Below, piece by piece: positions 52,032-59,857 of a stretch of DNA of 64,000 bases (its first letter is position 1; each line of letters starts with the position of its first letter). The translations under genes and the position numbers were made by a program. The notes under the pieces are model-generated. The model had not been told where the DNA came from, searched no databases, and saw only the letters and a program-made list of their open reading frames with translations. Origin of the DNA: Roseobacter fucihabitans (GTDB lineage Bacteria; Pseudomonadota; Alphaproteobacteria; Rhodobacterales; Rhodobacteraceae). Location of the stretch: contig NZ_CP143423.1 in assembly GCF_014337925.2 (NCBI RefSeq), positions 4,122,501 to 4,186,500 on the forward strand, in the 5' to 3' direction.

Positions 52032-52048
52032 TTCTTATTTTTTAAGAA
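52032..52048. promoter_or_regulatory. palindrome TTCTTA-N5-TAAGAA, copy 1
   Basis: A perfect 6-bp dyad with a 5-base spacer (TTTTT) in the divergent promoter between the PQQ-associated operon and the gene at 52056. An identical dyad with a different spacer occurs at 59841-59857 before the adhI-xoxF operon. Identity of arms with variable spacer points to a protein-binding site. Confidence 0.65.
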
Positions 52049-52055
52049 CAGGCCT

Positions 52056-52541
52056 ATGCGACTGATCATCCTTGCTTTTCTGGCTGCCAGCGGCGCGCAT
52101 GCCCAAGAACGTGTGGCGTTTTTTGGCATGACCCTGCTGGACACCTCTCTTCAGACCGGTGCGACCGGTGCAGACCCCGCCGAGACCGCGCGGCTTGCAA
52201 AACTGGAGGATATGGTACGCGACCGCTTTAGGACCGAAAACTATGTTCTGGTCGATATTGAACCTGCGCGACGCGAAATCGACAGGGTGGCCAATGTGGC
52301 AAAATGCTATGGCTGTGACACCCGCATCGCAACGCAACTTGGCGCGGATTATGCGCTGGTCGGCGAGGTGCAAAAAGTGTCAAATCTGATCATCGCGATG
52401 AACCTGCAACTGCGGGATGCAGATACCGGCCAGATGATCCGGGGCGGCGTTGTCGATATTCGCGGCAATACCGATGAAAGCTGGGAACGGGGCATGCGTT
52501 ACCTTCTGAAAAACCGGATTTTTGTGGCAGAAAAACCATGA
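52056..52541 (+). CDS. Periplasmic DUF3280/DUF2380-like protein
   Basis: The 161-residue precursor has a signal peptide (about 1-16, AHA-Q) and a body resembling DUF2380/DUF3280 proteins often found with PQQ enzymes (VAFFGMTLLDTSLQ, KCYGCDTRIATQLGADYALVGEVQKVSNLIIAMNLQLRDADTG). A CxxC pair lies in KCYGC. Function is unknown. It is divergent from the PQQ-associated operon, and the palindrome sits where its ribosome site would be, so its expression may be tied to the same regulator. Confidence 0.78.
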   Translation: MRLIILAFLAASGAHAQERVAFFGMTLLDTSLQTGATGADPAETARLAKLEDMVRDRFRTENYVLVDIEPARREIDRVANVAKCYGCDTRIATQLGADYALVGEVQKVSNLIIAMNLQLRDADTGQMIRGGVVDIRGNTDESWERGMRYLLKNRIFVAEKP

Positions 52542-52601
52542 GCACAGCAGTCCCCGCACCGGTTGCGCACGCTGAGAACAAAAAACGTCGCCAGATGCAT
52601 T

Positions 52602-52622
52602 TTTGTGATATGGTTACACAAA
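52602..52622. promoter_or_regulatory. inverted repeat upstream of the first SoxYZ-like carrier
   Basis: TTTGTG (52602-52607) and CACAAA (52617-52622) form a 6-bp dyad with a 9-base spacer, 50 bases before the start codon. CACAAA/TTTGTG half-sites also occur at 59818-59823 and 61713-61718 in the other xox-related promoters. Confidence 0.4.
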
Positions 52623-52671
52623 TACCTGCGAACCACGACATGATAAGACCGCGCAGTGCAGGAGATCGAAG

Positions 52672-53484
52672 ATGAAACACCTCTCTATAATCGCGTCATT
52701 GCTGATGGCGACCGCCCTGCCTCTGGGGGCCAGCACCGAAAGCTGGGACGCGGTCAAAGCACAGCTTTACGGCGAGCGCACTATGCTGAGCGGCGATGGG
52801 ATTATCGCGATTGATGCGCCCTACCGCACGCCCGATGATACGCGCACGGATCTGGCCGCACAAATTCAGGCACCGCCCGGAGCAGAGATCGTCAAGGTCA
52901 CGGTTGTGCTGGATGAAAACCCCATGCCCGTCTCGGCGGTCTTCGATCTGGATCGGCCCCAGCCCGGTTTCTATTTCGATCTGACCATGCGGGTGAACGG
53001 GCCAACACCCTTGCATGTGATCGCGGAAACCTCTGATGGTCGGTTGTTTGTATCTGAAACCTTCGTGAAGACCTCCGGGACGGGGGCTTGTTCCGCACCT
53101 CCGGGGACCAACCCGGAACTGGCACTGGCCAGTCTGGGCCGTATGGACATTGACGTGGTGGGCGCGGTGCCGGGCATTGATGCGGGCAAATTGACCAACC
53201 TCGCCTCAAGGCTCAGCCGGATGGACGTGGATATTTCACACCCCTCCCATTCGGGTATGCAGATGGATCAGATTTCTCTGCTGTTCGTCCCGATGCGCTA
53301 TGTTGAAAGCGTCGAGATTGATCTGGATGGGGCCGGGTTCGTGGATGTCACGGGCTCAATTTCACTCTCGGAAAACCCGCGTCTGGGTCTCGCCGTGCCG
53401 CAAAGCACGCGATCGGTTGATGTCACTATGACCGATACCGACGGCACCGTCAGCCACGCGCGCAAGGACCTGCCGGGCTTTTGA
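52672..53484 (+). CDS. Quinoprotein-associated SoxYZ-like carrier, copy 1
   Basis: The 270-residue precursor fuses a SoxY-like and a SoxZ-like domain. The SoxY part ends in a cysteine-bearing arm, TSGTGACSAPP with C140, equivalent to the GGCGG arm but internal; a SoxZ-like sandwich follows (about 160-265, DISHPSHSGMQMDQISLLFVPMRYVESVEI). Such fusions accompany PQQ dehydrogenases and their role is unproven. It has a signal peptide. It converges with the CxxxCW protein gene. Confidence 0.88.
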   Translation: MKHLSIIASLLMATALPLGASTESWDAVKAQLYGERTMLSGDGIIAIDAPYRTPDDTRTDLAAQIQAPPGAEIVKVTVVLDENPMPVSAVFDLDRPQPGFYFDLTMRVNGPTPLHVIAETSDGRLFVSETFVKTSGTGACSAPPGTNPELALASLGRMDIDVVGAVPGIDAGKLTNLASRLSRMDVDISHPSHSGMQMDQISLLFVPMRYVESVEIDLDGAGFVDVTGSISLSENPRLGLAVPQSTRSVDVTMTDTDGTVSHARKDLPGF

Positions 53485-58680: not shown

Positions 58681-58682
58681 CC

Positions 58683-59798
58683 CTAAAACTCCACCACGGC
58701 CCGGATGCTCTCGCCCTTATGCATCAGATCAAACCCGTGGTTGATCTCATCGAGCGTCAGCTTATGCGTGATCATCGGGTCGATCTCGATCTTGCCGTCC
58801 ATGTACCAATCGACAATCTTGGGCACATCCGTGCGCCCCGATGCCCCGCCAAACGCCGTGCCGCGCCAGCTGCGCCCGGTCACCAGCTGGAAGGGACGCG
58901 TCGAAATCTCCGCCCCCGCCGGGGCCACGCCGATGATGATGCTCTCGCCCCAGCCCTTATGCGCGGCCTCCAAAGCCGTGCGCATCACACCCACATTGCC
59001 GGTTGCGTCGAACGTATAATCACAGCCCCCGCCCGAGAGTTCGACCAGATGCGCGACCAGATCGCCCTCCACCTTGGACGGGTTCACGAAATCGGTCATG
59101 CCGAAATGCGTCGCCATCTCGATCTTGGCATCGTTGAGATCCACGCCGATGATCTGATCCGCGCCCGCCAGCCGCAGACCCTGGATCACGTTCAACCCGA
59201 TGCCGCCCAGCCCGAAAACAGCCGCCGTTGACCCAATCTCAACCTTTGCCGTGTTAATCACCGCCCCGATGCCCGTGGTCACGCCGCAGCCGATGTAGCA
59301 AATCTTGTCAAAAGGCGCGTCCTTGCGCACTTTGGCCAGCGCGATTTCGGGCACAACCGTGTGATTGGCGAAGGTCGAGCAGCCCATGTAATGGTGGATC
59401 GGCGTGCCATCCAGCATCGAAAACCGCGTGGAGCCATCGGGCAACAGCCCCTGACCCTGCGTGCTGCGGATCGACTGGCAGAGGTTGGTTTTGGGGTTCA
59501 GGCAATAGTCACACTCGCGACATTCCGGCGTATAAAGCGGGATCACGTGATCGCCCACCTCCAGGCTGGTGACGCCTTCGCCGATCTCGATCACCACGCC
59601 CGCGCCCTCATGGCCCAGAATGGCCGGGAAAATCCCCTCAGGATCATCGCCCGAACGCGTGAATTCATCCGTATGGCACAGACCCGTGGCCTTGATCTCC
59701 ACCAGAACCTCGCCCGCACGCGGACCTTCAAGGTTCACCTCCATGATCTCCAATGGCTGGCCAGCAGAAACAGCAACAGCAGCACGGGTCTTCATCAT
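58683..59798 (-). CDS. adhI: S-(hydroxymethyl)glutathione dehydrogenase (class III alcohol dehydrogenase)
   Basis: A 371-residue zinc alcohol dehydrogenase. The catalytic zinc Cys is in GLCHTDEFTRSG, the GHEGAGVV motif follows, and the structural zinc site is CRECDYCLNPKTNLC. The NAD loop is GLGGIGLNVIQG. It oxidises the glutathione adduct of formaldehyde. It heads the operon adhI-fghA-cytochrome c-xoxF-xoxG-xoxJ. ATG 59798 or 59795 are both possible. The shared palindrome lies 43-59 bases upstream. Confidence 0.95.
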   Translation of the reverse strand: MMKTRAAVAVSAGQPLEIMEVNLEGPRAGEVLVEIKATGLCHTDEFTRSGDDPEGIFPAILGHEGAGVVIEIGEGVTSLEVGDHVIPLYTPECRECDYCLNPKTNLCQSIRSTQGQGLLPDGSTRFSMLDGTPIHHYMGCSTFANHTVVPEIALAKVRKDAPFDKICYIGCGVTTGIGAVINTAKVEIGSTAAVFGLGGIGLNVIQGLRLAGADQIIGVDLNDAKIEMATHFGMTDFVNPSKVEGDLVAHLVELSGGGCDYTFDATGNVGVMRTALEAAHKGWGESIIIGVAPAGAEISTRPFQLVTGRSWRGTAFGGASGRTDVPKIVDWYMDGKIEIDPMITHKLTLDEINHGFDLMHKGESIRAVVEF

Positions 59799-59814
59799 TC
59801 TTTATTTCTCCCAT

Positions 59815-59837
59815 GGTCACAAATTTGCGAGGTGACC
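59815..59837. promoter_or_regulatory. inverted repeat in the adhI upstream region
   Basis: GGTCAC (59815-59820) and GTGACC (59832-59837) form a perfect 6-bp dyad with an 11-base spacer; inside it CAAATTTG (59820-59827) is itself palindromic. It lies between the TTCTTA palindrome and the adhI start, so it could be a second regulator site or part of a leader hairpin. Confidence 0.4.
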
Positions 59838-59840
59838 CTT

Positions 59841-59857
59841 TTCTTAGAATATAAGAA
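59841..59857. promoter_or_regulatory. palindrome TTCTTA-N5-TAAGAA, copy 2
   Basis: A perfect dyad with arms identical to copy 1 at 52032-52048 and spacer GAATA. It lies 43 bases upstream of the adhI start and 105 bases upstream of the divergent gene at 59962. Placement suits an activator of the adhI-xoxF operon. Confidence 0.65.

Follow-up and report, generated by a model that had tools for sequence, protein, structure and literature searches.

The window analyzed here, a stretch of 64,000 nucleotides from Roseobacter fucihabitans (NZ_CP143423.1, positions 4,122,501 to 4,186,500), carries two copies of the 17-bp palindrome TTCTTA-N5-TAAGAA (hereafter dyad). We found this dyad at two kinds of promoters linked to pyrroloquinoline quinone (PQQ), namely that of a gene string starting with PQQ_ABC_bind and a beta-propeller gene, and that of pqqA, which lies outside the window directly behind the gene for an OmpR-type response regulator. 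With good confidence, we propose that the dyad is the binding site through which this regulator would activate these promoters. A prediction made earlier from the sequence alone (the original prediction) had suggested a single regulon for PQQ and methanol oxidation; this is supported for PQQ, with pqqA as a third member, but its adhI-xox branch does not recur in the named relatives.

Occurrence and conservation of the dyad

Both 17-mers of the original prediction are present letter for letter, at 52032-52048 (TTCTTATTTTTTAAGAA, dyad 1) and 59841-59857 (TTCTTAGAATATAAGAA, dyad 2). In addition to these two perfect copies, the window contains 1 copy with two mismatches, compared to a mean of 0.39 copies with up to two mismatches (maximum 2) in 100 dinucleotide shuffles of the window. 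Throughout the genome (4.85 Mb), the perfect dyad occurs only as these two copies, and the back-to-front control is absent. Allowing for 1 mismatch yielded two further sites, C1:593882 and C1:4201920-4201936 (TTCTTATAAATTAAGAG). The 15-bp core TCTTA-N5-TAAGA was found three times (control: once), with all three copies within 27.4 kb and the third (C1:4201921-4201935) outside the window, between the OmpR-type response regulator gene and pqqA. At two mismatches, the genome holds 52 sites and the control 72, i.e., there is no enrichment, and therefore only near-perfect copies are informative. Of the sites with 1 mismatch, C1:593882 is flanked by two open reading frames (ORFs) that, by eye, resemble a transposase and a thioesterase gene, and it was taken as a chance occurrence.

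The region of the third site was found by searching the genome with pqqB and with the OmpR-type regulator encoded beside a perfect dyad in a relative (L091), and the best matches of both queries flank the site (Table 1). The regulator of R. fucihabitans aligns end to end with OmpR/PhoB-family structures (prrA, 1ys6; PhoP, 3r0j; BasR, 4s04) and models, and its 63%-identical orthologue in L091 contains a receiver domain (PF00072) and a Trans_reg_C winged helix (PF00486). By similarity, and with the domains assigned via this orthologue, the protein encoded beside pqqA is a response regulator of the OmpR/PhoB family. A palindromic word, GACCAAAGTC, at L117:9404-9413, 7 bp before the pqqA dyad and at a similar distance in many relatives, is possibly a further operator.

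Conservation was assessed at 80 named xoxF loci, and genomes were scanned for the perfect dyad (295 genomes) and for the extended core TCTTA-N5-TAAGA-N-TCG (394 genomes). Upstream of PQQ_ABC_bind, the dyad is present with at most 1 mismatch in 12 of the 63 readable named relatives (68 upstream regions minus our own, L004, and minus L087-L090, which had been fetched for their dyad), and none of 680 shuffled upstream regions came below two mismatches. The extended core gave 18 matches (control: 7), corresponding to 17 sites in 13 genomes (L195 and L205 are one palindromic site read both ways). Ten of these 17 sites lie at PQQ_ABC_bind, 6 between the regulator gene and pqqA, and 1 at an unrelated place. 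As the extended pattern was derived from the relatives, independent evidence comes from the location of each site and not from the genome count.

Past the dyad, PQQ_ABC_bind promoters share an extended -10 motif, G-N-TANNNT, mostly with a T before the G. Counted from the dyad, G21, T23, A24, and T28 are invariant in all 18 promoter rows (17 genomes, with our own represented twice by L003 and L004, and with L087-L090 included), and the -10-like TANNNT keeps a fixed offset, 22 bp past the dyad, in every row. From this geometry, the dyad center is predicted near -43 and the leftward transcript start near 51997. On the pqqA side, a weaker CANNNT lies one base further away (A in 18 of 21, T in 17 of 21), which would put the dyad center at approximately -44.

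The original prediction had assigned dyad 1 to the leftward seven-gene string. The conserved promoter indeed reads leftward, into PQQ_ABC_bind; the description has to be corrected, however, in that 7 bp separate the end of the dyad from the start codon of DUF3280, the gene on its right. The string codes for PQQ_ABC_bind (TIGR03863), the beta-propeller protein (TIGR03866), two small proteins, an NMT1-like binding protein, a permease (named from the same annotated gene order in Ruegeria sp. AD91A), and an ATPase. Judging from gene order, these genes would form one operon, and the start of PQQ_ABC_bind is probably internal to its ORF.

A second conserved element, CCNNAAGT(A/C)TCGGTT, is located 40 bp past dyad 1 and is kept upstream of PQQ_ABC_bind as far as Sinorhizobium/Ensifer, with a distribution independent of that of the dyad. 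In 25 genomes selected for carrying one, it gave 30 matches (control: 7) and was single-copy in 21. In the Paracoccus loci L041, L044, and L074, PQQ_ABC_bind promoters carry TCCATAAGACCTAAGAC, perhaps a tandem TAAGAC; L041 and L044, the two of these three that were searched, gave no OmpR-type match at E ≤ 1e-30.

Table 1. Features in and near the window. Plain numbers are window positions; L117 coordinates refer to locus L117.
Feature	Position	Strand	Remarks
Dyad 1	52032..52048	-	TTCTTAAAAAATAAGAA in the leftward reading; predicted operator for the PQQ_ABC_bind/beta-propeller operon
Predicted extended -10	52004..52012	-	TGCTAGGCT, leftward promoter; -10 itself 52009-52004
Second conserved element	51973..51994	-	AACCCGGCCAAAAGTATCGGTT; predicted leader, ~40 bp past dyad 1
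Leftward seven-gene string	46665..52029	-	from ORFs and family matches
DUF3280 protein (52056-52541) and SoxYZ-like carrier (52672-53484)	52056..53484	+	divergent from dyad 1
adhI-fghA-cytochrome c-xoxF-xoxG-xoxJ-CXXCW string	53489..59798	-	downstream of dyad 2; CXXCW protein is TIGR03865
Dyad 2	59841..59857	.	between adhI (leftward) and uncharacterized protein (rightward); less certain operator
Uncharacterized protein	59962..60582	+	divergent from adhI; no Pfam/NCBIfam match up to E 0.001
Histidine kinase	L117:7111-8709		HAMP, HisKA, HATPase domains
OmpR-type response regulator	L117:8719-9399		C1:4201218-4201895; ~15 kb to the right of the window, immediately before pqqA
Third dyad site	L117:9421-9437		TTCTTATAAATTAAGAG; between response regulator and pqqA
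pqqA-like ORF, 32 codons	L117:9504-9602		MAWSKPIIREIECGMEINMYGPDSDEEREVLF; by eye; annotated pqqA equivalently placed in Ruegeria sp. AD91A
pqqB	L117:9626-10519		by similarity
PqqC	L117:10520-11269		NCBIfam
PqqE	L117:11544-12650		NCBIfam

Co-occurrence of the dyad with an OmpR-type regulator

The assignment of the dyad to the OmpR-type regulator is based on its phylogenetic distribution and gene neighborhood. An orthologue at E ≤ 1e-80, a cut-off chosen after inspection of the list, was found in 12 of the 13 genomes bearing the extended site and in 4 of the 381 others (16 of 394 in total; Fisher 9.5e-19, with no correction for kinship). With the cut-off at E ≤ 1e-45, 12 of 13 compare to 21 of 381. 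Related sites are present in the four other genomes positive at the stricter cut-off: G067 and G161 have a perfect dyad that lacks the TCG, G047 has a site with two mismatches, and G071 has a direct-repeat form. Regulator presence was furthermore examined in 50 of the 80 xoxF loci, and a table compiled by hand for the 38 of these whose PQQ_ABC promoter was readable shows the OmpR-type orthologue (E < 1e-50) in 12 of 12 dyad-bearing and 10 of 26 dyad-less genomes (Fisher 0.0003). In most close orthologues, the site lies directly downstream of the regulator gene. In G002 and G262, no pqqA was found behind the regulator, yet the regulator gene is still followed by a site with 1 mismatch; the gene downstream of this site codes for a protein related, by eye, to the 341-residue protein L117:3971-4996, and in G262 a MoxR-like ORF comes next (also by eye). 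Matches to the regulator were also seen on 12 plasmid records, and L012 (JANQPX010000018.1), a metagenome-assembled genome of 8.5 Mb named Geminicoccaceae, has dyad and regulator together with an xox locus that is Roseobacter-like, and is possibly a mixed bin.

Several observations weigh against this assignment. Inverted half-sites are an unusual layout for OmpR-type regulators. The perfect dyad was found at 12 sites in 11 of the 295 genomes, and its reversed control was commoner, with 27 sites in 21; therefore, dyad counts prove nothing, and it is the locations that carry weight. Seven of the 10 perfect sites outside our genome lie at PQQ_ABC_bind (4; G125, G188, G213, G245), in the gap between regulator and pqqA (2; G067, G161), or at adhI (1; G217), and the remaining 3 at unrelated genes (G172, G033, G240). 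Of the 26 dyad-less PQQ_ABC promoters, 10 come from genomes that have the orthologue (E < 1e-50), and the orthologue scan of the 394 genomes scored 7 candidates per genome, so that some absences may be misses. Three other loci without pqqA behind the regulator have either no site (L218, L226) or a weak one (L222). Moreover, G266, the only other genome of the same genus that was scanned, has neither the perfect dyad nor the extended core nor the regulator (E ≤ 1e-45), and the system may therefore be patchy even within the genus. The remaining points concern adhI. Its dyad was found in none of 41 readable named relatives searched to two mismatches (48 entries minus our own, L003; L092, retrieved because of its dyad; and L020, L021, L046, L055, and L066, dropped because these loci end at contig ends), and 13 further adhI copies have no match below three mismatches. 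The class II geometry is also poorly matched there, in contrast to the fixed distance kept by the PQQ_ABC rows: applying the PQQ_ABC offset would place the transcript start approximately 8 nt before the ATG. This start would lie past the likely ribosome-binding site, and dyad 2 may therefore work in another way or belong to the gene on its right.

We are, therefore, less sure about a regulatory role of the adhI-xox dyad. It is common to our genome and G217 only, at identical position and with identical spacer, and is missing in L010, L011, L012, L014, L015, and L038 despite the presence of the OmpR-type regulator followed by a dyad (0-2 mismatches). As dyad 1 is kept in part of the family and dyad 2 recurs in G217 only, dyad 2 was taken as a local addition. 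Of the related promoters at which the original prediction had expected the dyad, that of the propeller operon thus retains it in part of the named relatives and that of adhI in none of them. Furthermore, xoxF has no dyad of its own: within 350 upstream bases, the best match in 81 loci has at least three mismatches, as in most shuffles. The gene order of the adhI-xox string is likewise annotated in Ruegeria sp. AD91A and Sagittula stellata E-37, where XoxF5 is named, and both relatives code for a hypothetical protein in the place of the divergent uncharacterized protein. Separately, adhI was found to be present twice in the genome (window 58683-59798 and C1:1539209-1540321), 99.82% identical over 1114 bp, with an aligned stretch that approximates the coding region and nothing beyond it aligning in the flanks compared, a pattern that looks like gene conversion. 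This duplication is perhaps the reason why contigs of many relatives end near adhI/fghA.

A NarL-type regulator and other explanations

The original prediction had suggested that the regulon is perhaps run by the two-component system at 63659 and had placed the start of its kinase there. This position is in fact the 3' end of a hybrid kinase on the minus strand (L003:12160-14433), part of a block (L003:12160-16234) coding for a PAS hybrid kinase, a FIST-domain protein, and a NarL/LuxR-type regulator beside the quinoprotein genes, in an order shared by two annotated relatives. The NarL-type regulator scores 144.5 bits against the ErdR model NF041830 (cut-off 390) and is, by this model, similar to but not a member of that family. 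That it binds the dyad is, in our estimate, improbable. Its gene adjoins the same cluster, inverted repeats are commonly bound by LuxR-type regulators, and NarL-type orthologues (E < 1e-50) are present in all 12 dyad-bearing genomes of the 38-genome table; but they are also present in 19 of the 26 dyad-less ones (Fisher 0.07, compared to 0.0003 for the OmpR-type regulator). At E ≤ 1e-25, a NarL-type match occurs in 47 of 50 xoxF genomes irrespective of the dyad, whereas the OmpR-type regulator tracks it, and L026, L027, L030, and L049, which have the NarL-type regulator, lack both the dyad and any OmpR-type match at E ≤ 1e-30. By our reading of the distributions, made without statistics, the NarL-type regulator seems to be followed better by the second element of the propeller promoter (51973-51994).

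A cascade in which the OmpR-type regulator controls the NarL-type operon was considered because of Sagittula stellata E-37, where both genes are adjacent and a two-mismatch site lies at the 3' end of the OmpR-type gene. Our own genome lacks such a site before the NarL-type gene, and the cascade was, therefore, not adopted.

We see similarly little chance that the dyad is bound by some other regulator of equal phylogenetic spread. The co-occurrence analysis covers two regulators only, and binding itself is proposed from sequence comparison; on the other side, most close orthologues of the OmpR-type gene have the site directly at their 3' side, and its diverged orthologues are accompanied by altered sites. 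Finally, it is very unlikely that the dyads are chance AT-rich palindromes or promoter boxes without a common regulator: although the two-mismatch motif is no commoner than its control, perfect dyads across the 295 genomes are fewer than reversed controls, and 3 of them lie at unrelated genes, the near-perfect copies are unique and clustered in our genome, and the dyad is conserved at the same two promoters in relatives. Chance is thus disfavored for dyad 1 and the pqqA site, whereas for dyad 2 it may play a part.

Proposed promoter mechanism, direct-repeat sites, and related systems

With the OmpR-type regulator as the preferred candidate, a mechanism can be proposed. The gene for a HAMP-type histidine kinase adjoins the regulator gene beside pqqA, and a dimer of the phosphorylated regulator would occupy both TTCTTA half-sites, which are inverted and spaced 11 bp apart. 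In the PQQ_ABC_bind/propeller and pqqA promoters, the dyad near -43 would replace a good -35 box, a position from which the regulator would act next to RNA polymerase as a class II activator. The PQQ-dehydrogenase accessory operon would thereby be switched jointly with PQQ synthesis, and a third site would have been added in this lineage between adhI-fghA-xoxFGJ and its divergent neighbor. The signal is perhaps methanol, formaldehyde, a lanthanide, or PQQ status.

A different version of the site was found at pqqA of several diverged regulator orthologues (53-62% identity), where TTCTTA is followed, after ten bases, by TTTGAC, TTTGAA, or TTTGCG. Among 11 such promoters, picked by a pattern that requires ten bases before TTTG, the distinct sequences comprise 9 with TTTGAC and 1 each with TTTGAA and TTTGCG; some orthologue loci represent one sequence reached twice (e.g., L094/L134/L228). 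A second half-site precedes TTCTTA by 10-11 bases and is a perfect TTCTTA in L137 and L235, a one-base variant in L138, L141, L231, and L234, and weaker in the others. In the dyad clade, the -10 starts 39-40 bp after the start of TTCTTA, which, with an assumed 17-bp spacer, gives a -35 position at the same 16-17 bp.

Tandem sites (TTCTTA-N4/5-TTCTTA, up to 1 mismatch) were also found at PQQ_ABC_bind in L024, L062, L077, L080, L082, and L084, and the N5 form at 1 mismatch occurs in 5 of 68 PQQ_ABC promoters compared to 0 of 680 shuffles. In two genomes, the tandem form is present at both promoters. One is L024/L141, where both promoters have TTTGAC at equal distance; the other, L080/L145, is an Ancylobacter whose regulator is 47% identical. 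The consensus of the altered site, searched upstream of seven genes in 12 genomes, was found only in L024, between PQQ_ABC_bind and DUF3280, and L017, L018, L028, and L039, which have an altered pqqA site and a readable PQQ_ABC_bind promoter, have no altered site at the latter.

Tandem half-sites approximately 10-11 bp apart are typical, though not strictly so, of the OmpR/PhoB family. The direct-repeat TTCTTA of some relatives has this spacing, while the clade of R. fucihabitans differs in having inverted half-sites with an 11-bp spacing of their centers. The recognition-helix stretch ENVVDVY-[IVL]-GYLR is near-identical in both regulator groups, and the promoters of G067 and G231, with three half-sites each, have the look of intermediates. 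We consider it an even question whether the operator has flipped, i.e., whether orthologous regulators with near-identical recognition helices read the half-site TTCTTA in two layouts, in matched steps at two promoters. TTCTTA would then remain fixed at approximately -51 to -46, 16 bp before the -35 position; the tandem clade would combine an upstream TTCTTA-like half with a consensus-like -35 (TTTGAC), and the other clade, lacking the -35, would have the inverted half TAAGAA in its place.

Among annotated relatives, the plasmid NZ_CP031947.1 of Ruegeria sp. AD91A carries the complete island: MoxR/VWA genes, a response regulator, a FIST protein, a PAS protein, a SoxYZ-like gene, adhI-fghA-cytochrome c-XoxF5, the propeller operon, and pqqEDCBA-regulator-kinase. 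It has one-mismatch sites at 29211 (PQQ_ABC_bind) and 37802 (pqqA) as well as a two-mismatch match inside fghA. On the Sagittula stellata E-37 plasmid NZ_CP155732.1 (stretch L273), a one-mismatch site is located at PQQ_ABC_bind (4108), and the regulator gene has a site with two mismatches at its 3' end (21960).

Two-component control of PQQ and methanol genes is of a known kind, here with a real, small, and conserved regulon site. As far as the available parts of the cited papers describe them, the MxcQE and MxbDM systems of Methylobacterium control mxa and xox expression, with no operator sequence given (PMC5784242, PMC11845868), FlhSR and MxaYX of Paracoccus denitrificans control genes for glutathione-dependent formaldehyde oxidation and methanol dehydrogenase (PMC8879981), and PedS2/PedR2 of Pseudomonas putida switches PQQ-dependent dehydrogenases on lanthanides (PMC6115532). 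The likeness drawn from these descriptions, not from sequence, is that of kinase-regulator pairs governing methanol oxidation genes for MxcQE/MxbDM and of two-component control for FlhSR/MxaYX, while PedS2/PedR2 acts in another host on other target genes. Those Paracoccus loci of the xoxF set that have a readable PQQ_ABC promoter differ in lacking the dyad, with at least three mismatches in the best match. Among the matches listed from the open-access literature, titles and abstract openings give no description of this regulator or operator, and no paper among them deals with the matching of PQQ supply to the enzyme system in Roseobacter-group bacteria; the available portions of the main texts of PMC12628762 and PMC5934484 do not mention a regulator, two-component system, or promoter.

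PQQ is the cofactor of the lanthanide-dependent methanol dehydrogenase. If the proposed regulon is real in the cell, a joint switch would govern PQQ, the genes that assist it, and perhaps methanol oxidation as well, tying the uncharacterized PQQ-ABC/propeller accessory operon to PQQ control. Such a regulon would comprise three sites and have a named regulator and a named kinase. Should the flipped operator hold true as well, one regulator family would show the change of an operator from a direct to an inverted repeat.

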